Positions 14,277 through 39,763 of a DNA stretch of 64,000 nt are shown here, piece by piece; position 1 is the first letter of the stretch; each line of letters begins with the position of its first letter. The position numbers were made by a program, and so were the translations under genes. Source of the stretch: a virus. A model generated the notes under the pieces. It was not told the origin of the DNA. It worked only from the letters and a program-made list of their open reading frames with translations, and made no database searches. Where the stretch lies: IMG/VR virus record IMGVR_UViG_3300011116_000574, positions 36,658 through 100,657 of that record; one strand, given 5' to 3'.

Positions 14277-14657
14277 ATGGCAACTAAAGCAAATTTTGAA
14301 CATATTCAGGGAGATAATTTTCGCCTGAATATTACATATTATGATTCAAGCGGTAGCGTTGTAAATCTATCGGGTTACTCTGCCGTACTTGAGGTTAGAG
14401 ATCAGCCTGGTGGTCAACTTTTATGCACCACTGCCTCTATTGGTTCAATTCCATCAAGTGGATCTTATTCTGGACTATATATATCTACCCCAAGTGCTTC
14501 TAGTGGGGCTTTAATTATTAATCTTCCAGGAACTGAAACAGCTAATTTCAATTACCCACGATCATCATATCAGATTAGAGTTCAGAGTTCGGGTGGGATA
14601 AAAGATACCCTTGCTCATGGATGGATTTCTGTAGATGCGGGTACCATTGACATATGA
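14277..14657 (+). CDS. virion-associated beta-rich protein, BppU-N-like (126 aa)
   Basis: The opening pattern GDNFRLNITYYDSSGSVVNL, then YSAVLEVRDQPGGQLL and a closing YQIRVQSSGG...AHGWISV, is typical of short phage domains annotated as BppU N-terminal-like or tail-attachment domains that anchor fibres. It is coupled by ATGA to the fibre gene downstream, supporting a fibre-adaptor role. The upstream spacer has GGTCGTGGC as a weak ribosome site. Confidence 0.75.
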   Translation: MATKANFEHIQGDNFRLNITYYDSSGSVVNLSGYSAVLEVRDQPGGQLLCTTASIGSIPSSGSYSGLYISTPSASSGALIINLPGTETANFNYPRSSYQIRVQSSGGIKDTLAHGWISVDAGTIDI

Positions 14658-15925
14658 GCGATAACTATTCCATAATTGAACCAATAATACATACAGTTAG
14701 TGCTACACAAATAACCAACACTGTTGTTGTTTCATCTCCAGGTCCACAAGGTCCAATTGGAGAATTTCAGCCTTCAAGTATTCCAACTGCATATCCAATA
14801 ACAAATGCTTCTGGAACAATTGGATACAATACATCTTATATTCCAGCTAGTGCTACATATTCTTCAAGTGCTGGTATTTCATCATCTACTACTCAAACAA
14901 ATTTTAACTCCCTGACTATAAGTGGTTCGAATGTGGCAACACAACAATATGTTTTGGCAAACATTCCAGCTTCTGCCCAATATGCTGGAAGTTCACAGTA
15001 TGCTACAAATTCTGGAAGTTCAAGTTATGCGACATTATCATCTAGTGCAAATATATCATCAAGCACTAACTATATTTTAGGATCTAATGTATCTGGTGCA
15101 GTTGCTAGTGCTACAATTTCAGCAAGCGGAATTATATCATCTAGTGCTAATATTTCTTCAAGTGCCATAACATCTTCAAGTGCTACAATCTCTTCTAGTG
15201 CAAACATATCAGCATCAGCAAACTATGCTATTAACTCTGAAAGTTTAAATGGTCAACCAGGTTCTTATTATGCTCCCGCCACATCTAGTGTTGGAATTGG
15301 TTCTACCAGAATTACTTTAAATACAACAACATCATCTTTAGGCGGGGTTTTAATAAACAATAGCTCATCAGTATTATCTCCACTTTTAATTCTTAATAAT
15401 ACTAATACGCAACCTTCAACTACTCAAGGTACGCTGTATTATGAAACAAACACCTTTAGTCCGACAATTGTTACTGACACTACCAGCCCAATTCACATGC
15501 TTCAGCAAGTTATGATTAGAGCGGTAAATGATAGTAATGCAACAATATCTAAGGGTCATGCTGTATACTTAAGTGGAGCACAAGGAAATAGACCTGCAGT
15601 AAAGTTAGCAATTGCTTCAAGTTCCACAACACATGATGTTATTGGTCTTGTATATGACGATATTGCAGCTCATCAAGATGGTTGGATTATTATACAGGGT
15701 CTTATAGAAGGCGTTGACACAAGAGCTTATACAGAAGGTGAATACATTTACCTTTCTGCAGCAAGTGCTGGAGGAATAACTTCTACAGCACCTTCTTATC
15801 CAAACTACGCCTATGTTGTTGCACAAGCACTTAATTCAACTGTTCAAGGCAAACTCCTTGTTAAGGTATATGATGCTTATAATCAAGTTAATATACCAGG
15901 AGCAATTCAGTTCTCTGATGGATAG
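14654..15925 (+). CDS. tail fibre protein, Ser/Ala-repeat shaft (423 aa)
   Basis: After a PGPQGPIG collagen-like turn (about 30-37), residues 70-195 are low-complexity Ser/Ala/Thr with repeated SSSANIS, SSSATIS and SSSAIT units. They form the likely fibre shaft. The C-terminal part (about 285-415) has the pattern VNDSNATISKGHAVYL ... HDVIGLVYDDI ... GEYIYLSAASAGGITS, a common phage fibre domain. It ends PGAIQFSDG, exactly where the next gene takes up a fibre-like NAKLDINGNASV motif, so the two probably once formed one protein. Confidence 0.82.
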   Translation: MSDNYSIIEPIIHTVSATQITNTVVVSSPGPQGPIGEFQPSSIPTAYPITNASGTIGYNTSYIPASATYSSSAGISSSTTQTNFNSLTISGSNVATQQYVLANIPASAQYAGSSQYATNSGSSSYATLSSSANISSSTNYILGSNVSGAVASATISASGIISSSANISSSAITSSSATISSSANISASANYAINSESLNGQPGSYYAPATSSVGIGSTRITLNTTTSSLGGVLINNSSSVLSPLLILNNTNTQPSTTQGTLYYETNTFSPTIVTDTTSPIHMLQQVMIRAVNDSNATISKGHAVYLSGAQGNRPAVKLAIASSSTTHDVIGLVYDDIAAHQDGWIIIQGLIEGVDTRAYTEGEYIYLSAASAGGITSTAPSYPNYAYVVAQALNSTVQGKLLVKVYDAYNQVNIPGAIQFSDG

Positions 15926-17282
15926 AGCTGTTGGTTCTGAAAATGCCAAACTTGACATAAACGGAAATGCTTCCGTAACAACTTTAAATATTACTGCATC
16001 TACATTATCTACAAGTTCAACAACAGGAGCCTTAGTCGTTAAAGGTGGTATTGCTACAGGAGATGGAGTTACTGTAGGTGGAAATTTAACAGTCATTGGA
16101 AATATTAATGGATCAGCAACATTTGCAAATAATTCTGCAAGTTTAGACGGGATTATAAGTAGTTCTTATGCTCTTAAATCATATGTCGACTCTGCATCTT
16201 TAAATGCATATAATGCAGCAAGTGCTTATACGCAAAGCGGGTCCTGGAGTAATGCTAATGCTTCTGTTTCATACTCATCAAGTGTTGGCGGTAATTTAGT
16301 GGGTGGACTATTTAATACTTCTAGTGGGCAAGCAACATTATTCTCAACACCATCTTCAATTAATATTGGAATTGCGAATGCCAATGGTTTTCAAACTATT
16401 AATATTGGAAATTCAAGGGTCACAAGCAATAGATTAATAAATATTGGAGGAACTGATGTATTTACAGCAGTAGAAACAATTAATATTGGTACAGGTTCTG
16501 TAACTGTTGGTGGAAGAACAATAAATATTGGTACGGGAACCGCATCCAATAGCATTGTTATTGGAAGTCTGCTGACCGCATCAATTAATGCTAATACCTA
16601 TATAAATGGAGCTTTAACTGTTACAAACCTTATTTCTGGAACATCTGCCTCTGCCACCACATCTTCAAGTGCTAGATACTCATCAAGTGCCACAACTTCA
16701 TTAAATTCAGCAAGTTTGGGTGGTATTGTAGCAAGCGAGTACGCAACAGAAACAGATGTTTATACTGCACAATTAACTCCAACAACATCTATAGATCTTT
16801 TTCCAAGAACATCTATTGCGGGAGTAAGAACACTTGCTGCTGGCACAATTTATGCTACTGGATTTGTACCAATTAAAAACTTTACACTGAATACAGTTAC
16901 AGTAGTTTTAACATCTGCGGGAACATCATCAATACAGTTTGGTCTTATTTCTACATCTGGCTCTACACTAACGGTTGTTGCAAGTACCGTTGCAGTGGTT
17001 CCTGGAGGAGCTGGTATTTTTACTGGGTCTTTTTCTACTCCTCAAACATTAACCGCTGGTCAAAGCTATGCAATTGGATTTTTGGCGGTGGGCGGAACAA
17101 ACCCAACACTTGTTGGTCAAGCTTTTGCGACAACTAATGCGGGAATAAGTTATGGGCTATCTCCGTTTATGGCAGCAAATTCATCTACCACAACATACAC
17201 ATCAATTCCTGCTGCTGGAAACACTATTGCACTTAATACTGCAACACCAACAGTTGCAATGGCTTGGGCTAGGTTATCTTAA
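15918..17282 (+). CDS. tail fibre protein, distal part (454 aa)
   Basis: I start at the ATG at 15918, which overlaps the stop of the preceding fibre gene as ATGGATAG. A motif common in fibres (NAKLDINGNASVTTLNI, GGIATGDGVTVGGNLTV) comes first. A series of INIG repeats (INIGIAN, INIGNSR, INIGGTD, INIGTGS, INIGTGT) about residues 150-215 suggests a beta-helix. A compact C-terminal domain (about 300-454) is probably the receptor-binding tip. Confidence 0.8.
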   Translation: MDRAVGSENAKLDINGNASVTTLNITASTLSTSSTTGALVVKGGIATGDGVTVGGNLTVIGNINGSATFANNSASLDGIISSSYALKSYVDSASLNAYNAASAYTQSGSWSNANASVSYSSSVGGNLVGGLFNTSSGQATLFSTPSSINIGIANANGFQTINIGNSRVTSNRLINIGGTDVFTAVETINIGTGSVTVGGRTINIGTGTASNSIVIGSLLTASINANTYINGALTVTNLISGTSASATTSSSARYSSSATTSLNSASLGGIVASEYATETDVYTAQLTPTTSIDLFPRTSIAGVRTLAAGTIYATGFVPIKNFTLNTVTVVLTSAGTSSIQFGLISTSGSTLTVVASTVAVVPGGAGIFTGSFSTPQTLTAGQSYAIGFLAVGGTNPTLVGQAFATTNAGISYGLSPFMAANSSTTTYTSIPAAGNTIALNTATPTVAMAWARLS

Positions 17283-29917: not shown

Positions 29918-32900
29918 GTGGTAAATCGTATTGACATTCAAGTTAATGCCACGGGAAACTTTGGTCAACTTCATGCTCAAATAGCGGAGTTAAAGGCTGC
30001 AGTTGCACAACTGCAGTCTAAACCACTTTTAGGAGATACTGGTAGGGCTACTGCTGCTCAACTTTCTCAAATACAAACACAGTTTGACAAGATGCTTTTG
30101 GCAACAAGAGCATTTAATGTTGAAACTGTAAAGATGTCAAACTCTATAGATAACTTTGGAAATAGATTACAGGCAGGAAAACTACACTTCTCTGAGTATG
30201 CAAGAATGTACCGTCAGACAATGAAGGGCATGCGTAACGAACTTGACGCACTTGCAGATTCACAAGCAAGAGTTGCAAAATCGGTTGTTCTTCCAGATGC
30301 ATTAAGAACTGGTTACGCTAGAGTAATTACAAATCTTACATCCGACCTTAAATCACTTAATGCTGCAGAAGAAGCAGCAATAATAAAAACAAAAGCTTTA
30401 AACTCTGTTATCCATGGAATGGGAACATCTTTGGTTAATATGGGTAAAAATACACAGTGGGCTGGTCGCCAGCTTACTGTTGGTCTTACCGTTCCAGTTG
30501 CAGCATTTGGCGCAATGGCTGCAAAAGTATTTAAAGATGTAAATACAGAACTTACAAGAATGCAGAGAATGTATGGTACTGGTTTATCTCTGCCTAGCGA
30601 ACAAGAAATAGCAAAAGTATCTACCGCAATTATAGATCTAAGTAAAAAAGTTGCAGAAAATATGGGTATTGCCCAAAAAGAAACTGTTACTGCTGCTGCT
30701 AATTTTGCTGCTGTTGGTACAACTGGAGATGCACTTATTGTAGCAACAGAACAGGCTATGCGACTTTCAAAACTTGGTGCCGTTAATGCTGACACCGCAC
30801 AAAAAACAATTACATCTTTGCAGACAACATTTAGGGTAGGCACTAAAGATGTTGCTGAAGCAGTAAACTTTTTGAATGATATTCAAAAACAGACATCCAC
30901 AGACTTACAAGATCTAACCGATGCAATTCCTCGTGTTGGTCCAATTGTATCTCAACTTGGTGGAACATATAAAGACACCGCAGTTATGATGGTTGCCATG
31001 AAAGAAGCTGGTGTTCCAGCAGCACAATCTGCAAACGCAATCAAATCCGCAGTTGCGTCTATGATTGGTCCAACTCGTCAAGCCAGGGATGAGTTTGAAA
31101 AGTATGGAATTAGTCTAACAAAAATTAAAGATGATACTCAGGGTAATCCAATTAAAATGATTGAAGCACTTCAGACTTCTTTGCAAAAATTATCACCACT
31201 TGTTCAAGCTCAGTTAATTGAAAAACTATTTGGTAAGTTTCAGTTTGCTCGTGTGACTGCACTTATTAACAATCTTGGTGCTGCAGGAAGTCAGACACAA
31301 AATGCTTTTCTAGTAGCAAAAGCTAGTGTTTCAGAACTTGCAAGACTAGCAGACTCAGAAATGAAAATTGCTACTGAATCAACAACAGCAAAGTGGTCTA
31401 GAGCACTAGAAGGATTTAAATCAACCTTGCTTCCTTTGGGTGAAAAGTTTATGAAATTTGGAACCAAAATCTTAGACTTCTTCTCTAAAGTAATGCATTT
31501 CTTAGATAGATTTAAACCTTTAGAAAACCTCTTAGTTAATGTTTTGGGTGGAGCAGCAATAGTTGGTCCTATTCTTATGCTAGTTGGTTTGTTTGGAAAC
31601 CTTGCTGGTAACATAATTAAGGGTGTAAACTACTTCAGAATGTTTGCTCAAGGGGCTAAAGATGGCGGAATTTTAGCTGGCTTTAAGAGCATGGCTAACT
31701 TCTTTGAAATGATTAACATTGAAACACTTGCATCTTCAAAAAATATGGATGGTCTTACAACATCTACTCAAAAAACCGTAGAGGCTTTTGCTGTACTTAA
31801 TCAAGAAATTGGAATTATGACCAGAAGTCTTAATGAAGTATTTGCTCGTAGCACTAGAATGCCAATAGTTGCATCTCCATATGCACAACAAACATTGGCA
31901 CAATTACAGACAATAAATCCCGAATATGTTGGCGGAGTAACAAAGGGACTAGAAAGACCACACATGTTCCCTGCTGCAAGACTTTGGGAAGGTTGGGCTG
32001 CAAATGAAGGAAACATACAGGGCAGAGTGCCAACGCTAAACGCCTTTTTACAAAATAGAGCACTTAATCCAACAATGGAGGCTCAGGAAAACTTTATGAG
32101 AGGTGGAATGCCAGAACAATGGGGTGCTCCAGTTCCATCAGGTGGTTTAGCTGCTCAACTTCAAAAAGAATACGGAACCGAAGATGTTATTCACGGTCCA
32201 AAATTTGGTCTTTCAAAAGAAGATGTTTACTCAAGAGGTTTTCAAAAAATAGAAAACATTAGGAGTAAAATACTTGACGAAAGAATAGCTGCAGATAGTA
32301 AAGTAGCAATAGAGCTTGCAAAAATTGACGCATTGCCAGAAGAACAAAAAGTTCAAGCTTTAACACAAATTATTCAGAAAGTTACATTTACTGAAGAACA
32401 ATATTTCAACAACCTAATTGAATCATTAGTTCAAACTCAAGCTTTACTTACCGCTCCAGAAGAAATGCTAAAGGCTGTAGACACAAAGGTTAAAACAGTC
32501 CTTGCTGACCCAACAATTGAAAATAAGTCTGTTGCTATTCAAGCAATACTAACCGAGTTTAACGCAGACTTTAAACTTCTTGGAGGAACAGTAGTTGAAG
32601 AAATAACTAAATATAGAACTTTAGTTCAACAGACAATACTCAGTACCACATCCACTTTTGAAACTGCCATAGCAGCAGCTAATTTTAGGGCTGGTATAGT
32701 TGCTAGTGCCGAAATGTTTGGCGGGGTAAGAAAAGGTGCTTTAGGAAGATTTGTCAGTATGGACAAACAAGCTTTATCACAATCAATATTAATGGCAAGA
32801 GATATTCCAAAAGGTTTCCAAACTGGTGGAGCAATTCATGCACAAGACGGTGTTTGGGTTCCAGGAACTGGCTCTGGAGATAGAGTTCCTGCAATGCTTG

Positions 32901-35900
32901 AGCCAGGAGAATTTGTTGTTAATCGTAATGCTGCTAAACAATATGGCGGGTTACTAGAACATTTAAACTGGAATGCTGCTCCAAGATTTGGAACTGGTGG
33001 AACTCCTAGTCCTACATCTGTTGGAATTAGAGGATATCAAAATGCTGGAGATGTAGAAAAGCCTAGGGTTAAAGCTTGGGTACCAAAAGATTTACTTGGC
33101 TTATCTAAAGGAGAAAACTTTTTTGCTCGCGACATGTATTCTCCAGGAAGCCAATTTCGAAGAATATTGTATGGTCCGATTTTAGATCAATTAAGAAATC
33201 AAGGCTATAAAGATGATGTTATTGAAAGAATTAAAAAAAGTTTTGACTCAGACAGAAATTTAAGATTATATGAGGATAGGTCTGCTTTATCAGAAGCACT
33301 TTCATCAGTAATTAGAAGAGGTAATCCATATGGAATAGACATAAGGGCTTTTTCAGAGGATGCTCGTGGAAGAATTATGGCAACAATTGAAAACGAAAGA
33401 CTTAGAACACACGAAGTTCATGATTTCAAATACTTTGACCCTAATGCACCAGTAAGGTTTTCACCAACAAGAGGCATGCCATCAATATTTAAACCTCTAA
33501 GAAAATTGAGTTTTGATGAAGCATATGGAGGAGATATAGGTTGGGTTAGAAAGCTAGTCCCAAGTCTAGCTGAAACATATATGTTAGCCCCATGGAAAGC
33601 CGATGATTATTTATTAGAAAAGCATGGGGCGCATATACTCTCTACAGCTCGTACACCACGCATAACTGTTGCTCAAAAAGGCGGTGGAATTCCAGGATAT
33701 CAAAGCGGATTAACAGTCCCAAGTATGGCATCTTTAAATAGAGAAGAACAGCAAGCTTTGATGGAAGAATATATTCAAAAAGCCCTACGCCCATCAAGTG
33801 CATTAAGTTTGTTACAAGAAGAAATTTTTTCTGCTGTTAGCCCATCTCAATTAGAATTGATACAAAAAGGTTATGGACATGAAGTTTTGCAATACAATTC
33901 AAATCTTGCAAAAATATTAGAACAGTACACTTTTAATGAAAAATCATTTGTTCTTCGACCAGGATATACTCCGCAAAGAGAGAGCTTTAACCTTTTCAAT
34001 ACATTGGGTAAAAATGAAAGATTCCATATGGGCATGAGCAAAACTCAATTTGAAACTTGGCAACCAACATCAATGTTTTCTACTAGCGAAAGGTCTCCTT
34101 TATTTACTAGAACTTTGGCTCAGGCTATCAAAGAGCAGGGCAAGGGAATTGGAAGTATTGGAGTTGTTCCAGAAGAACTAAGTTTAAGTCCTTTTAGTGA
34201 AAAAATGTATCAGAATTTAAGAAGACGGGGAATGGGAATAGAAGTTACAGGTAACGAGCCAGACTTTAGATCAACCCTATACGAAACAAATGATATTGAT
34301 TTAGAAGAATCAAGAAATACAACAAGACATATTTTGGATAGATTGTTGAGAAGAATAACAACTGACAAACTTTACAATAACTCTTTTACTTATAATTCTC
34401 AAAAACCTATTAGTGGTCAGCCTGGTGCTTATAGCATTAGTCGTGGTTTTGTGGATCAAATGGATGTTCAACATAGAATTCCAGAATTAGAAGCAAGAAC
34501 AACCATGATGAGATTCTTGAGACAAGGTATGTTTAAGCAAAAGGGTGGTGGAATTCCAGGATATGAGCAAGGTGGTGGTCCTACATGGATGGCTAGAGGC
34601 AATCCATATACAGAAGCACAGTTCCAACAATCTTTAGAATCTTGGATTAGACCAGTTCTTCACGGAATGGCTCCTTGGAATAATCCAGAAAAAGAAACTT
34701 ATCGACCAATGGGAGAATTATACAAAGGTTTCTACAGAGACATATTTAATGATCAGATGAGAAATATTGGTAGACAAGATCTTCTAAGAGCAATGGTTGT
34801 AGATAATGTTAAGGGCGGAGCAAACATGCACCCTTGGCTTACAAATATGGTAAATGCAGCAGAAGATCGCTATTACCCACCAGGCTTTCAGGGAATTAGG
34901 GTTCCAGCTATGGAAAATATTCAAGGTCCATGGGTAGCAAAAACAACAAGACCATTTACATCCTTTACTGACATTAAGGATACCAGCTTCTTGAAGAAAA
35001 GATTTATGCCAGACTTTGGAGATAAAAGATTCTGGAATGCAATGAATCGCGGAAACAAACTTCCATTTTTCTTGCATGCAATGACTGGACCAGAAACTAT
35101 GGGTCTGCCAGTTTCAAAATTATTTGCTGGACAAACTTACTATGGAAATGAAGGCGAGTATGTTTTACCACAAGGTCAAAAATTCCCAATGACGGGATAC
35201 AGTAGTGACCTTGCTACTAGATTACCAATAGTCCATTCTATTGCTCCAGGCTCAACTAAGATGATTGGCGGGATGAGAATTCCTGTTGCTCAAACTGGCG
35301 GTATGATTCCAGGATTCCAAGAGGGATACACAGATTATCTTGGCTCTAAAATTACAGGTCCGCTAGGATATGCTGTTCAGAGCGGAATTACGGGGACATA
35401 TAATCTAGAAACTAGCACAGGACCACAAACAGCTTATCTGAAGCAAATGTTTGAGCCTGGAATGTTTGATTATGGCGAAGCTCCAGTTAATAAAAGAGAG
35501 ATGGTTATGGAAGCATTCCTTAACCAATTACAAAGAGGCTTGGGTGGGTCTCAGGCTGCTATAGATCAAGTGTATTCAAGATTAATTGATCCATCTGGCG
35601 AAGGAGCATTAAGAGAAACCTCTGTTCTAAGGTCAAAGTTTTTGGAAGGTTTTGAAACTTACAAGAGTTCTGGATTATCAACAGCAGTTGGCGTAGAAGA
35701 TTTTAAGGGCAGAATAGATCCTCAACAAACATTCAAAAGGTTTATGGAGTCAGCACTTATTGGTAATGAAGATCTCCATGATGAAAACTTTGGCTATGTA
35801 GGCAAAACACCAACTGTTGTTGATAGTGGTATAACCGCTATACACAAACTATTAAAGGGTTATAGTGGATTTGATAATACTATATCTGAGCATGTAAACC

Positions 35901-38900
35901 TTGGAAATATGCACGATATGCGTAAAGCTGCAATGGTGGCAAAAACTTTACTTCAAGAGCAGGGAATCAGTATTGAAGAATTTAGTAAAACTCATATTGA
36001 TAGTTTAAGGTCAAAACTTTCAGAGGAACTTATTCATAACGCATTATTAAAAGCAACTGGCGGAGTCCCCGAATTAATGACCGTGTTTGATGAACTTACG
36101 CAAAAAAGCTATGGAGCAAATTTTGTTCCATCAATCACTAAAGTTTTGCACAAAAGACTTGATAGTTTAGCAAGGTTTGCAGATCCCACAAATCCTATGT
36201 CTGGAGCATTACCAAAATCAACTACACCACCACTTGCATCTAACATTATGAAAGGTTTTATGACCACTAGACTTCAAACTGGTGGAAGTGCTTGGGTTCC
36301 AGGATTTGGCGAGGGCGATAGGGTTCCAGCCATGCTTGAACCTGGTGAGTATGTAATTAATAAAAAAGCTGCTAAAGCATATGGCGGTTTACTAGAAGAT
36401 ATTAACTGGAATCAAGCCCCTAGATTTGAAACTGGAAATGAAGTTGGCAATAGACAAACTAGAAGAGGAAATGTTCCAATTGCTGTTACAAAAAACCAAG
36501 TTGGGGCAAATATTAAAGAATTTAATAATATGATGGCGGGTGTTCCAAGAATTGGATCAACATTAATTGCTGCAGGACAATCATTAAAAGTTTCAATTCT
36601 TAATGGAGCGCAAGCCTTAAAACAATCTGCAATAGCAACCAGAGAAGCCAACATGACTAGAGGAATGATTGCAAAAAATGAACTTAGAGGATTAAAGGAT
36701 AGTGTTGTTAATGGTGTAAGAAGTGGTGTTCTTGGTGCCGCTAAAGCTCCTGGAGCAATGATGAGAGGAATTGGAAGCTTTGGATATAATTCAATAGCAT
36801 CAATTAAAGAGGGTGGTAGAAACTTTGGTACGGGCTTTATGGGAGCAAGGCAAATGCAACCGATCCTTGGCGCAGACGGAAAGCAAGTATTTGATGAAAA
36901 AGGAAATCCTCAAAGCCGTTATGCAAAATTTAGTGAAGCAAAAGGTGTCGGTGGAAAGCTTGGCTATGCTTTAGGAAGACAATCTAGACCAGGAATGGGT
37001 TCTATGATTGGTGGTCAAATGCTTGGTATGGCTGCCATGCAAATGGCTGGAGGAATGCAGGAGGGTACTGCAAAATCTGCACTGTCTGGTGCAGGAATGG
37101 GTGCAATGCTTGGCGGTATGACCCCACTTGGTCCAATTGGTGGTGCTGCTATAGGAGCAATTGCATCGGGCGCATATAGCATGTATAAGCAGCATGAACA
37201 AAAACTTAAAAATGCAGCAACTCTAGTCAAAGACTCTTTAAATATGAGTGCTATTGCAATGCAACACTTAGGTGTTCAGGCTAGAGATTTTTCAAATATT
37301 ATGATTGATTCTTCTGGAAAAGCAACAAAAGCTACATCAGAATTTCAAGTTCAGGTTAATGATTATAAAAATGCTCAAGATGAAGAAACAAAAACTGCCG
37401 TTCAAGGAATGAAAGAAAAATTAGAATCGGGAGATATTTCTGGACTAAAAGAAATTATAAAAACAAGAGTTGCAACACAAATGAGCAGCCTTGTCAATCC
37501 AAATGATCCAGAAGCTAGAAAGAAAGTAATTCAAGACAACAAGGCTTTTGTTGCTTCATCTGGAGCAGGAATTGCAACACAAAGAGAAATTTTTTCTGGA
37601 ATTTCTTCAAAAACAACTCCAGAGTCAGCTATAAAACAACAACTAAAGCAGCTAGGTCTTTTTGACTTTAATTCTGTACAGAAAACTCAAATGATATTAC
37701 CAGCAGGAGTAAACAGGAAAAAATATCTTGAAGAGCATCCTTTAGCTGGACAAGATTTAACTATTGCAAATTTAGCAGCGGGTACAAATATGGGTGCTAA
37801 TACTACTCAAAAAATACAAATGACTAAAACCGCTAGTTCAATAACTTTTGACGAATCAAAAATGCAAGCTTTAATTACACAACTTCAAACAAAAACAGAT
37901 CCAATGCAACTTGGGAAAATGCTTGGACCATTAAATAAAGCAAGCGGAGATGTAAAATTGTTTAAAGAATCTATGAGCACTGTTGGTGTTGGTGGTGCTG
38001 GTTGGCAAAAACTTTTAGAAAGTGTAAAGAAGATGGATCCAGCTTTAGCAAAACTAGATCAACAATACGGAAGATATATTACAGATGGTACTCAAATAAT
38101 TAGAATAAATAATCTTATGTCTGCTGGAATGACACAATTAAATATTTCTCAACAAAGGCAAATTAATACTAATCCCAACTTAATTTCTGGATTAGAAGCT
38201 CAGTATAGTGCACAAAGTGCCGTAAGTGGCGGAATAGCAGATTGGATTTCAAATGCAGCACAGTATGACGCACAACAAAATGATCAAGCAGATGCTGCAA
38301 ATAAAGCAGCAGAAGCTTTACAAAGTCAAAAGGATCACATAAACAATTTAATTGATGGTCAAAACAATTATATTAAGTGGCAAAATAAAGCTATTGATGG
38401 TGTGCAAAAAGAAATGGATGCAAGAAACAAACTTGCAGATACACAAAATAAAGAAATCGAAAGAGAAAGAACACTAGCAGACCTAAAAGACTCTGTAACG
38501 GCTGCAAGAGCTTCTGGAAACTTACTTCAAATGGCAAGTGCTCAAAGCAAGTATAACGAAGAATTAGCTAAACAAGAAGAAGCTAAGAAAAAAGAAGCAG
38601 CTGATGCAGCCGATGAAAAGAAAATTGCAGCCTATAAAGCAAATATTGATAAAGCAAGTGCTCAAATTGAAAAGTATAATAAAAAACTTGAAGATCTGGA
38701 TAAAGCTTCAAATGACACTACAAAAACACAATCTAAGAACTGGAACACTGTTTCTGGAAAAGCGCATAAAGCAGAAAACGCAGTTAATGATGTTGGCACA
38801 GCCATTAAAGATGTTGGAAGTGGTGGGACATGGACTAGCCTAAAAGATTTCCAAGAAAAAGTTCTTGGTCAAAAAGGTATGAAGGGTAAATTAGAGGCTG

Positions 38901-39763
38901 CTGGATTATCTTCAGATCAAGTAAGAGATAAGATAAAAGAGCTATACACAAGTTTTGGGGGAAGTAAACAGGCAAAAGCAAATGAAGCGTTAGTTTCTAC
39001 TAAAAATGCAATCCTTGATATTAAAGATGCATCAGAAAAAGCTTTAGCTGTTCAACTTTTCACCAATATGTACACAGCAGACCCAACTGGAAATGTTAAA
39101 GACATGTCAAAGAGAGCAATGGCTGCTGCACATCAATTTACAGCTGCTACAAGTAATATGCCAACATCTCCTCCCACCCCAACACAAGACATGAAAAATG
39201 GTGCTGGTGACGGAAATTGGTATCAAGATCCAAAAGAAAAAGATTATTACTGGTTGTGGAAAGCAAAGGATAAAAAATTCTTTGAGACTCCTTCAGACAA
39301 AGCTGAGATGAAAGAAAAGGAAAGATTTGGATGGCACGACTATAGCGGTGGTAAATGGGGCGCAACAATTGAAGGAAAAGCTTTTGGTGGAATAATACAT
39401 GCAGCTACTGGTATAGGACCAGTTATGGGTCCAGGTGGACCAAGAGATGATTTAATTCCCGCCATGCTTTCAAATGGTGAGTATGTAATTCAAGCATCAT
39501 CTGTAAATAAATACGGAAAGACTATGATGGATGCAATTAATGGAGGAAACTTTTCTCCTAGATACGCAACTGGTGGTATAATGAGATCATATAGTGTTGG
39601 CGGGGATATTAATAACAATAGTGTTCTTCCAGCCCCACAGTACAATGTTAACATTGTTGTAAATGGCGCAAATGCAAGCGCAGATGATATAGCCGATATG
39701 GTTGCAACTAGATTTAGAAGAGAGACAGAAAGTATGTCTTCAGGTAGGAGTTTGAGAGCATAA
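29918..39763 (+). CDS. tape measure protein with embedded enzyme-like domains (3,281 aa)
   Basis: GTG 29918 follows GTGGAGGAATAATAA. Residues about 1-460 are a TP901-type tape measure core (AAKVFKDVNTELTRMQRMYG), with a hydrophobic stretch near 535-565. Residues about 965-1030 carry a GDRVPAMLEPGEFVVNR hinge found again near 2119-2175 and, variant, near 3175-3230. Between the first two hinges lie four segments separated by GG-x-IPG linkers at about 1253, 1540 and 1791: A unknown (1031-1250), B possibly STS-containing (1265-1535), C ADP-ribosyltransferase-like (about 1555-1787: R1661, S1682, E1745, E1747), D kinase-like (1805-2115: K1842, E1865, D1952, H1954, N1957, D1969). Hydrophobic Gly/Ala/Met helices at about 2360-2425 and a coiled coil (about 2815-2920) follow. 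If all residues were helical tape, the tail would be near 490 nm; the globular inserts make a shorter tail likely. Confidence 0.93.
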   Translation: MVNRIDIQVNATGNFGQLHAQIAELKAAVAQLQSKPLLGDTGRATAAQLSQIQTQFDKMLLATRAFNVETVKMSNSIDNFGNRLQAGKLHFSEYARMYRQTMKGMRNELDALADSQARVAKSVVLPDALRTGYARVITNLTSDLKSLNAAEEAAIIKTKALNSVIHGMGTSLVNMGKNTQWAGRQLTVGLTVPVAAFGAMAAKVFKDVNTELTRMQRMYGTGLSLPSEQEIAKVSTAIIDLSKKVAENMGIAQKETVTAAANFAAVGTTGDALIVATEQAMRLSKLGAVNADTAQKTITSLQTTFRVGTKDVAEAVNFLNDIQKQTSTDLQDLTDAIPRVGPIVSQLGGTYKDTAVMMVAMKEAGVPAAQSANAIKSAVASMIGPTRQARDEFEKYGISLTKIKDDTQGNPIKMIEALQTSLQKLSPLVQAQLIEKLFGKFQFARVTALINNLGAAGSQTQNAFLVAKASVSELARLADSEMKIATESTTAKWSRALEGFKSTLLPLGEKFMKFGTKILDFFSKVMHFLDRFKPLENLLVNVLGGAAIVGPILMLVGLFGNLAGNIIKGVNYFRMFAQGAKDGGILAGFKSMANFFEMINIETLASSKNMDGLTTSTQKTVEAFAVLNQEIGIMTRSLNEVFARSTRMPIVASPYAQQTLAQLQTINPEYVGGVTKGLERPHMFPAARLWEGWAANEGNIQGRVPTLNAFLQNRALNPTMEAQENFMRGGMPEQWGAPVPSGGLAAQLQKEYGTEDVIHGPKFGLSKEDVYSRGFQKIENIRSKILDERIAADSKVAIELAKIDALPEEQKVQALTQIIQKVTFTEEQYFNNLIESLVQTQALLTAPEEMLKAVDTKVKTVLADPTIENKSVAIQAILTEFNADFKLLGGTVVEEITKYRTLVQQTILSTTSTFETAIAAANFRAGIVASAEMFGGVRKGALGRFVSMDKQALSQSILMARDIPKGFQTGGAIHAQDGVWVPGTGSGDRVPAMLEPGEFVVNRNAAKQYGGLLEHLNWNAAPRFGTGGTPSPTSVGIRGYQNAGDVEKPRVKAWVPKDLLGLSKGENFFARDMYSPGSQFRRILYGPILDQLRNQGYKDDVIERIKKSFDSDRNLRLYEDRSALSEALSSVIRRGNPYGIDIRAFSEDARGRIMATIENERLRTHEVHDFKYFDPNAPVRFSPTRGMPSIFKPLRKLSFDEAYGGDIGWVRKLVPSLAETYMLAPWKADDYLLEKHGAHILSTARTPRITVAQKGGGIPGYQSGLTVPSMASLNREEQQALMEEYIQKALRPSSALSLLQEEIFSAVSPSQLELIQKGYGHEVLQYNSNLAKILEQYTFNEKSFVLRPGYTPQRESFNLFNTLGKNERFHMGMSKTQFETWQPTSMFSTSERSPLFTRTLAQAIKEQGKGIGSIGVVPEELSLSPFSEKMYQNLRRRGMGIEVTGNEPDFRSTLYETNDIDLEESRNTTRHILDRLLRRITTDKLYNNSFTYNSQKPISGQPGAYSISRGFVDQMDVQHRIPELEARTTMMRFLRQGMFKQKGGGIPGYEQGGGPTWMARGNPYTEAQFQQSLESWIRPVLHGMAPWNNPEKETYRPMGELYKGFYRDIFNDQMRNIGRQDLLRAMVVDNVKGGANMHPWLTNMVNAAEDRYYPPGFQGIRVPAMENIQGPWVAKTTRPFTSFTDIKDTSFLKKRFMPDFGDKRFWNAMNRGNKLPFFLHAMTGPETMGLPVSKLFAGQTYYGNEGEYVLPQGQKFPMTGYSSDLATRLPIVHSIAPGSTKMIGGMRIPVAQTGGMIPGFQEGYTDYLGSKITGPLGYAVQSGITGTYNLETSTGPQTAYLKQMFEPGMFDYGEAPVNKREMVMEAFLNQLQRGLGGSQAAIDQVYSRLIDPSGEGALRETSVLRSKFLEGFETYKSSGLSTAVGVEDFKGRIDPQQTFKRFMESALIGNEDLHDENFGYVGKTPTVVDSGITAIHKLLKGYSGFDNTISEHVNLGNMHDMRKAAMVAKTLLQEQGISIEEFSKTHIDSLRSKLSEELIHNALLKATGGVPELMTVFDELTQKSYGANFVPSITKVLHKRLDSLARFADPTNPMSGALPKSTTPPLASNIMKGFMTTRLQTGGSAWVPGFGEGDRVPAMLEPGEYVINKKAAKAYGGLLEDINWNQAPRFETGNEVGNRQTRRGNVPIAVTKNQVGANIKEFNNMMAGVPRIGSTLIAAGQSLKVSILNGAQALKQSAIATREANMTRGMIAKNELRGLKDSVVNGVRSGVLGAAKAPGAMMRGIGSFGYNSIASIKEGGRNFGTGFMGARQMQPILGADGKQVFDEKGNPQSRYAKFSEAKGVGGKLGYALGRQSRPGMGSMIGGQMLGMAAMQMAGGMQEGTAKSALSGAGMGAMLGGMTPLGPIGGAAIGAIASGAYSMYKQHEQKLKNAATLVKDSLNMSAIAMQHLGVQARDFSNIMIDSSGKATKATSEFQVQVNDYKNAQDEETKTAVQGMKEKLESGDISGLKEIIKTRVATQMSSLVNPNDPEARKKVIQDNKAFVASSGAGIATQREIFSGISSKTTPESAIKQQLKQLGLFDFNSVQKTQMILPAGVNRKKYLEEHPLAGQDLTIANLAAGTNMGANTTQKIQMTKTASSITFDESKMQALITQLQTKTDPMQLGKMLGPLNKASGDVKLFKESMSTVGVGGAGWQKLLESVKKMDPALAKLDQQYGRYITDGTQIIRINNLMSAGMTQLNISQQRQINTNPNLISGLEAQYSAQSAVSGGIADWISNAAQYDAQQNDQADAANKAAEALQSQKDHINNLIDGQNNYIKWQNKAIDGVQKEMDARNKLADTQNKEIERERTLADLKDSVTAARASGNLLQMASAQSKYNEELAKQEEAKKKEAADAADEKKIAAYKANIDKASAQIEKYNKKLEDLDKASNDTTKTQSKNWNTVSGKAHKAENAVNDVGTAIKDVGSGGTWTSLKDFQEKVLGQKGMKGKLEAAGLSSDQVRDKIKELYTSFGGSKQAKANEALVSTKNAILDIKDASEKALAVQLFTNMYTADPTGNVKDMSKRAMAAAHQFTAATSNMPTSPPTPTQDMKNGAGDGNWYQDPKEKDYYWLWKAKDKKFFETPSDKAEMKEKERFGWHDYSGGKWGATIEGKAFGGIIHAATGIGPVMGPGGPRDDLIPAMLSNGEYVIQASSVNKYGKTMMDAINGGNFSPRYATGGIMRSYSVGGDINNNSVLPAPQYNVNIVVNGANASADDIADMVATRFRRETESMSSGRSLRA

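Follow-up and report, generated by a model that had tools for sequence, protein, structure and literature searches.

A predicted ADP-ribosyltransferase of the R-S-E class carried as a cassette inside a phage tail tape measure protein

Introduction

A virus contig of 100,657 bases (IMG/VR record IMGVR_UViG_3300011116_000574) encodes a tail tape measure protein in which an initial annotation pointed to a residue pattern resembling that of R-S-E mono-ADP-ribosyltransferases (ARTs). Does this pattern mark a genuine enzyme domain, and what would such a domain be doing inside the ruler of a phage tail? The stretch of DNA analysed here, called the window, comprises 64,000 nucleotides of the record (positions 36,658 to 100,657), and the tape measure gene and its parts lie on its plus strand. 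By predicted fold and motifs, the segment in question, cassette C, appears to be a genuine R-S-E ART, and it lies with three other cargo cassettes in the central part of the tape measure. Because the protein contains swappable domains, including one with a predicted ART fold and catalytic residues, the tail ruler probably also serves to carry host-modifying enzymes and deliver them at infection.

The tape measure gene and its cargo region

The cassettes are carried by a 3281-aa open reading frame with a GTG start (29918..39763). A Pfam search detected PF10145 (PhageMin_Tail) with an E-value of 8.3e-29, the core of the match covering residues 241-439 (30638..31234), and comparison with PHROG returned a series of tape-measure families with E-values down to 1e-99. 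On these sequence matches the ORF is a genuine tape measure; genes for phage structural proteins (portal, major head and minor tail) are found close by. The nearest annotated phages to its N-terminal region are Streptomyces phages, whose tape measures are 30-32% identical, and an actinobacterial host is therefore plausible. Elsewhere in the window, ORFs 14654-15925 and 15813-17282 overlap in different frames and represent either a frameshift pair or two genes; neither had PHROG or Pfam matches.

Three copies of a bead of about 55 aa, with the consensus WVPGxGxGDxVPAMLEPGEFVVNxxAAxxYG, were located in the tape measure by bead alignment and HMM. Bead 1 (WVPG..GDRVPAMLEPGEFVVN..AA..YG; residues 972-1028, 32831..33001) comes after the N-terminal region and forms the left edge of the cargo region, bead 2 (residues 2120-2173, 36275..36436) forms its right edge, and bead 3 (residues 3169-3220, 39422..39577) lies close to the C-terminus. 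The LEPGE bead is very widespread in tape measures, with at least 536 confirmed matches in viral contigs, and also occurs in Gordonia and Streptomyces phages. Beads are common to cargo-bearing and cargo-free tape measures.

Beads 1 and 2 enclose about 1150 aa of cargo, divided into four segments (A-D) with GGGIPGY or GGMIPGF linkers (GG-x-PG) between them. Cassette A comprises residues 1040-1264 including the trailing linker GGGIPGYQSG (33035..33709), and cassette B comprises residues 1265-1553 including the trailing linker GGGIPGYEQGG (33710..34576). Cassette C, the predicted ART domain, occupies residues 1554-1793 (34577..35296), with an ART core at residues 1606-1774 (34733..35239) as bounded by the family HMM. 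Cassette D, residues 1794-2121 (35297..36280), starts with the linker GGMIPGFQEG.

Predicted fold of cassette C

Cassette C was modelled twice with AlphaFold2. An alignment of 15 sequences gave a model with pLDDT 59.6 and pTM 0.60, and an alignment of 24 sequences, from which the L007/L097/L099-type branch was excluded, gave pLDDT 63.1 and pTM 0.62. Both models are of moderate confidence, with weak stretches at C positions 30-51 and 92-117. The modelled strands at C positions 68-76 (with R1624), 127-131 (with S1682) and 194-198 (beginning at E1747) follow the R, S, ExE order of ARTs, R1624 being on the first core strand.

When each model was searched against the PDB with Foldseek, all 50 of the 50 matches listed had an ART or ART-like fold. 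Those listed include C3, C2-I, iota Ia, CDTa, Vis, Certhrax, XopAI and VIP2 and, for the second model, lethal factor, which contains an ART-like fold domain. Against a library of predicted viral structures, most functionally named matches of the second model are ARTs, Alt/ModB/VIP2-type proteins among them; they include a Gordonia phage ART, ADP-ribosylases of Aeromonas, Acinetobacter and Serratia phages, VIP2 proteins and head-morphogenesis fusions. The exceptions are an entry annotated as ADP-ribosyl-(dinitrogen reductase) hydrolase and the first-ranked match, a medusavirus protein whose name refers to a Rho N-terminal domain and which superposes poorly. TM-scores of the fold matches were low, at 0.36-0.45. 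The structure prediction suggested with the initial annotation thus returned an ART-like fold, and the assignment to the R-S-E class is borne out by the two models and their Foldseek matches. From these models cassette C almost certainly has an ART fold; its fold class is clear, but not its subfamily.

Profile searches and the family of cassette C

No ART match came from searches of Pfam, PHROG and PDB sequence profiles, whether the query was C by itself, the complete tape measure or the family profile. The ART-PolyVal family PF18760 matched none of 48 related records, this genome included. A tblastn search of annotated phages with C yielded no accepted relative, the sole weak match (E 0.5) being the same phage twice; a pattern scan of genome contigs returned matches with no relative among them; and the family profile detected no ART in the tape measures of Enygma, Bunnybear, JustBecause and Coruscant. 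Comparison of the C-type profile with T4 Alt by hhalign gave a probability of 5% (E 0.0078, score 28), unrelated control segments scoring 18 or less, and this weak match is located at the ExE strand (CT 183-214 against Alt 596-633).

Relatives of C were found in the tape measures of other uncultured phages, as copies between beads at differing positions. With a profile built from the window and one close relative (L004), L104 proved to contain a relative of full length (E 6e-44), and other long tape measures gave weaker matches. The iterated family profile matched 31 ORFs of the loci compared, a count in which several loci repeat the same contig, and all 31 are tape-measure ORFs or fragments. 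Each tape measure carries one to three copies (L104, L110, L174 and L178 are multi-copy, with up to three). Further scans added the C-type members L166, L167 and L168, and L110-type members likewise. Built from separate sequences, the C-type and L110-type profiles matched each other with an hhalign probability of 97% (E 8e-11), and a held-out profile made without the window, L004 and L104 still matched C at residues 1703-1774 (E 0.0022). The L007/L097/L099-type branch was joined to the family through intermediates by iteration; direct hhalign comparison with the C-type profile gave no match, and its membership is less certain.

That C is not an ART at all, with a coincidental R/S/E match and an artefactual model match, is very improbable. 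The moderate model confidence and the lack of matches to curated families would fit such a reading. Against it, two models from different alignments found ART-fold proteins in all PDB matches listed, the separate viral library was concordant, and the motif recurs in independent branches of the family.

Segment B had been proposed as a decayed ART relative on the strength of TSMFSTSE, which is indeed present at residues 1384-1391. That proposal found no support: hhalign comparison of B with ART profiles remained at background (probability <1%), and no relationship was detectable. More ART-like R-S-E patterns were noted in the C-terminal parts of the L123 (ORF residues 1150-1384), L039 and L019 tape measures. 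These include MLHRGTS..SSFSQS..EAEHLL and EMWRG..SWTTDKDIA..NEAES, are weakly matched by the family profile, and may represent separate ART lineages.

Catalytic residues

The motifs quoted for cassette C are all present as described: FQGIRVP at residues 1657-1663 (34886-34906), TRPFTSFTD at 1677-1685 (34946-34972) and GNEGEYVLPQGQKF at 1743-1756 (35144-35185). The numbering of R1661, S1682, E1745 and E1747, with spacings of 21 and 63 residues, is likewise right. The 24-sequence alignment against which these residues were assessed includes near copies and represents about six to eight branches. S1682 (34961..34963), the serine of the S motif (FTSFT), is kept in 24 of 24 members, its surrounding motif reading TSF in cassette C versus the canonical STS. 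The E1745-x-E1747 motif (35150..35158) supplies the catalytic glutamate position at E1747, where Glu is found in all 24 members, nine of them allowing a one-column alignment slip. The serine and ExE assignments therefore stand. The choice of R1661 as catalytic arginine does not, since only 3 of 24 aligned members have arginine there; R1624 (LLRAMVV; 34787..34789) is invariant instead, in 24 of 24. In other C-type members a gapped local alignment might put an arginine close to R1661, but the L110-type has none.

Among 15 members, which apart from L004 are 13-41% identical to C, the only invariant columns are R1624 and E1747, and in the six C-type sequences R1624, S1682, E1745 and E1747 are all invariant. 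The first acid of ExE is replaced in several relatives, and the catalytic Glu is kept in all members. A bare R..S..E pattern is by itself weak evidence for an ART. Here the pattern is more than chance, because it is kept in 24 aligned members and accompanies a predicted ART fold, and R1624-S1682-E1747 is the best-supported triad from the alignments.

Exchange, length and selection

Three relatives sharing the tape-measure N-terminal region (L003, L004 and L005) were compared with the window. Cassette A is swapped for unrelated segments in all three. In L004, B, C and D are retained (71, 88 and 77% identity) beside a different A. L005 has B and D but not C, again with a different A, and in L003, whose contig ends early, B follows a further, distinct A. 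C comes first after the bead in L104, L166, L167 and L168 but third in the window, and cassettes are therefore reordered as well as exchanged. From these comparisons, the tape-measure segments behave as swappable cassettes.

Many relatives of the tape measure have about 1600-2000 aa, and cargo-bearing ones reach 4584 and 4698 aa. Among close relatives (L003, L004, L005, L007 and the window) the tape measure varies in length by more than 1000 aa. Under the ruler model, these phages would have tails of different lengths, or else cargo is not counted in the tape.

Between the window and L004, cassette C has a dN of 0.073 and a dS of 0.385 (ratio about 0.19). The corresponding ratios are 0.12 for the tape-measure N-terminus, 0.19 for D and 0.44 for B. 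By this comparison, cassette C is evidently under purifying selection.

These data bear on whether C is catalytic. It is unlikely that C keeps the ART fold without catalysis, serving a structural or binding role such as that of a spacer or channel element, even though catalytically dead ART-fold domains exist elsewhere and the first E of ExE is missing in several relatives. Invariance is centred on R, S and E across members at about 20% identity, the dN/dS ratio is 0.19, and C is present or absent among close relatives, unlike an essential structural element. Overall, cassette C is probably an active enzyme.

Other cargo

Pfam searches of 13 tape-measure interiors detected HAD_PNKP (in one of the 13), Amidase_2, SLT_3, DUF2786 and DUF6287. 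Cassette D, common to L004 and L005 and with weak profile matches in L114 and L173, contains motifs that look kinase-like by eye, HDEN and VVDSG (LIGNEDLHDENFGYV ... TVVDSG). It had no Pfam or PDB match, and a kinase assignment was set aside, since it relied on motif only and profile searches gave no support. Of the window's cassettes, the ART is the one enzyme fold with support, D being kinase-like by motif only; relatives add HAD_PNKP, Amidase_2 and SLT_3.

Motif-level observations were made in other tape measures. A kinase-like cassette was noted in L006, L007 and L168. The 4698-aa tape measure of the L007 contig (L087, minus strand) has a HAD phosphatase cassette (IVYDIDKTL), a kinase-like cassette, two copies of a Cys/His-rich segment (RCGEFGG..SGMPC..RCYLH) and an ART-like C-terminal segment (LYHGSPGD...TTTRPDIAKQYA). 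The 4584-aa tape measure L086, of the L031 contig, has two HExxH metallopeptidase-like segments (IPHEMGHW and LHETGHAL) near its third and fourth beads, which possibly process the polypeptide.

Proposed delivery and function

In siphophages the tape measure occupies the tail channel, and work on phage JBD30 proposes that it is ejected ahead of the genome to build a DNA channel (PMC11445458). Cassette C, carried by the tape measure, is likely delivered at infection as a host-modifying effector. The tape measure, with its cargo extended or compact, would run through the tail and, on tail opening, would exit ahead of the DNA; the cassettes would then arrive in the cell envelope or cytoplasm and fold. 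Wall-hydrolase cargo (Amidase_2, SLT_3) would act outside the cytoplasm, and therefore not every cassette need reach it. The ART would use NAD+, with R1624 and S1682 shaping the NAD site and E1747 acting as the catalytic residue, and the E-x-E motif suggests arginine as acceptor. ADP-ribosylation of one or more host proteins early in infection, as Alt does for T4, would favour takeover or blunt defence; host RNA polymerase, raised in the initial annotation, would be a possible target by analogy with T4 Alt only. A folded 240-aa globular domain would be hard to accommodate in a lumen holding several tape-measure copies, and this tight fit counts against delivery; passage in an unfolded or partly helical state, with refolding after ejection, would be the simplest idea.

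Alternatively, the ART might act in the producing cell, its cassette being cut out or separately translated during assembly and never delivered by the virion. The HExxH peptidase-like cassettes of some relatives (L086) could process the chain, a peptidase-like region has been reported in the tape measure of phage T5 (in PMC11445458), and about 1150 aa of cargo is awkward for a tail ruler. Yet the tape measure is encoded by a single uninterrupted ORF, the bounding beads are common to cargo-free tape measures, and an enzyme meant to act late would hardly be expected to be fused to a virion protein that exits with the DNA. Activity in the producing cell is quite improbable.

Returning to delivery at infection, we lean slightly towards a broader reading in which the tape measure of some environmental siphophages is a cargo rail, its exchangeable cassettes being joined by GG-x-PG linkers and injected before the genome follows. 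On balance, these cassettes, namely ARTs in one to three copies, HAD_PNKP-like phosphatases, and kinase-like and zincin-like domains, would form a mixture of early-infection effectors, and the linker grammar seems somewhat more apt than not to permit whole cassettes to be swapped in frame between phages. If this is true, it helps to explain tape measures of 3000-4700 aa beside relatives of about 1600-2100 aa, and makes the tape measure a place to seek early effectors. It also bears on the ruler model, in that inserted cargo would either lengthen the tail or be excluded from the measured tape.

Comparison with known systems

The Streptomyces phages of the Stanwilliamsviridae (e.g. Enygma and Coruscant) share with this phage a tape-measure N-terminal region of about 30% identity and the gene order of major tail protein, chaperones, tape measure and minor tail proteins. 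Their tape measures, in contrast, have about 2100 aa, with no ART detected. In a survey of protein mosaicism, no genuine recent case could be confirmed for tape measures (PMC10684548); the cassettes described here are clear candidates. In a survey of jumbo phages the tape measure is mentioned only as a conduit (PMC7824862).

The closest solved folds to C are the R-S-E ARTs C3 exoenzyme, C2-I, iota Ia, CDTa and VIP2. They differ from C in having identities of only about 7-16%, no detectable profile relation, another carrier and presumably another host. A fold match tells nothing of shared targets.

T4 Alt, like ModA and ModB, is an R-S-ExE ART in the context of a phage virion. Alt is a separate protein, packaged in the head and injected, whereas C is an internal cassette of the tape measure; C may be likened to Alt by mode of action, riding the tail ruler instead of the head. 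Fusions of ARTs to MuF or portal proteins likewise join a phage structural protein to an ART, and head-morphogenesis fusions are among the fold matches of C. These are head proteins, whereas here the carrier is a tail protein and the ART is internal, in exchangeable arrays.

In polyvalent proteins, a single polypeptide combines several disparate domains, probably enzymatic (Iyer et al., 2017; PMC5512222), as this tape measure may do. Their entry into the host together with the DNA has been predicted, and ARTs, kinases and zincin-like peptidases recur among them (PMC5512222). The carrier here is instead a tape measure, and the word 'tape' has 0 occurrences in that text. Their ARTs are of the H-Y-D type, whereas C is of the R-S-E type and is not matched by PF18760 (ART-PolyVal). 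The cassette array most likely works like a polyvalent protein in tape-measure form, delivering its enzymes with the DNA; we infer such delivery from the place of the cassettes in a tape measure (PMC11445458).

A survey of viral NAD and ADP-ribose enzymes lists phage ARTs as polyvalent, head-packaged or MuF/portal-fused and does not mention tape measures (PMC9503650). No tape-measure ART was described in the open-access literature searched, and reports elsewhere could exist. By modelled fold and motifs, cassette C is classed here as an R-S-E ART on a new carrier, the tail tape measure, and enzymes inside the tail ruler, if this is true, would constitute another delivery route beside that of head-packaged or head/portal-fused ARTs.
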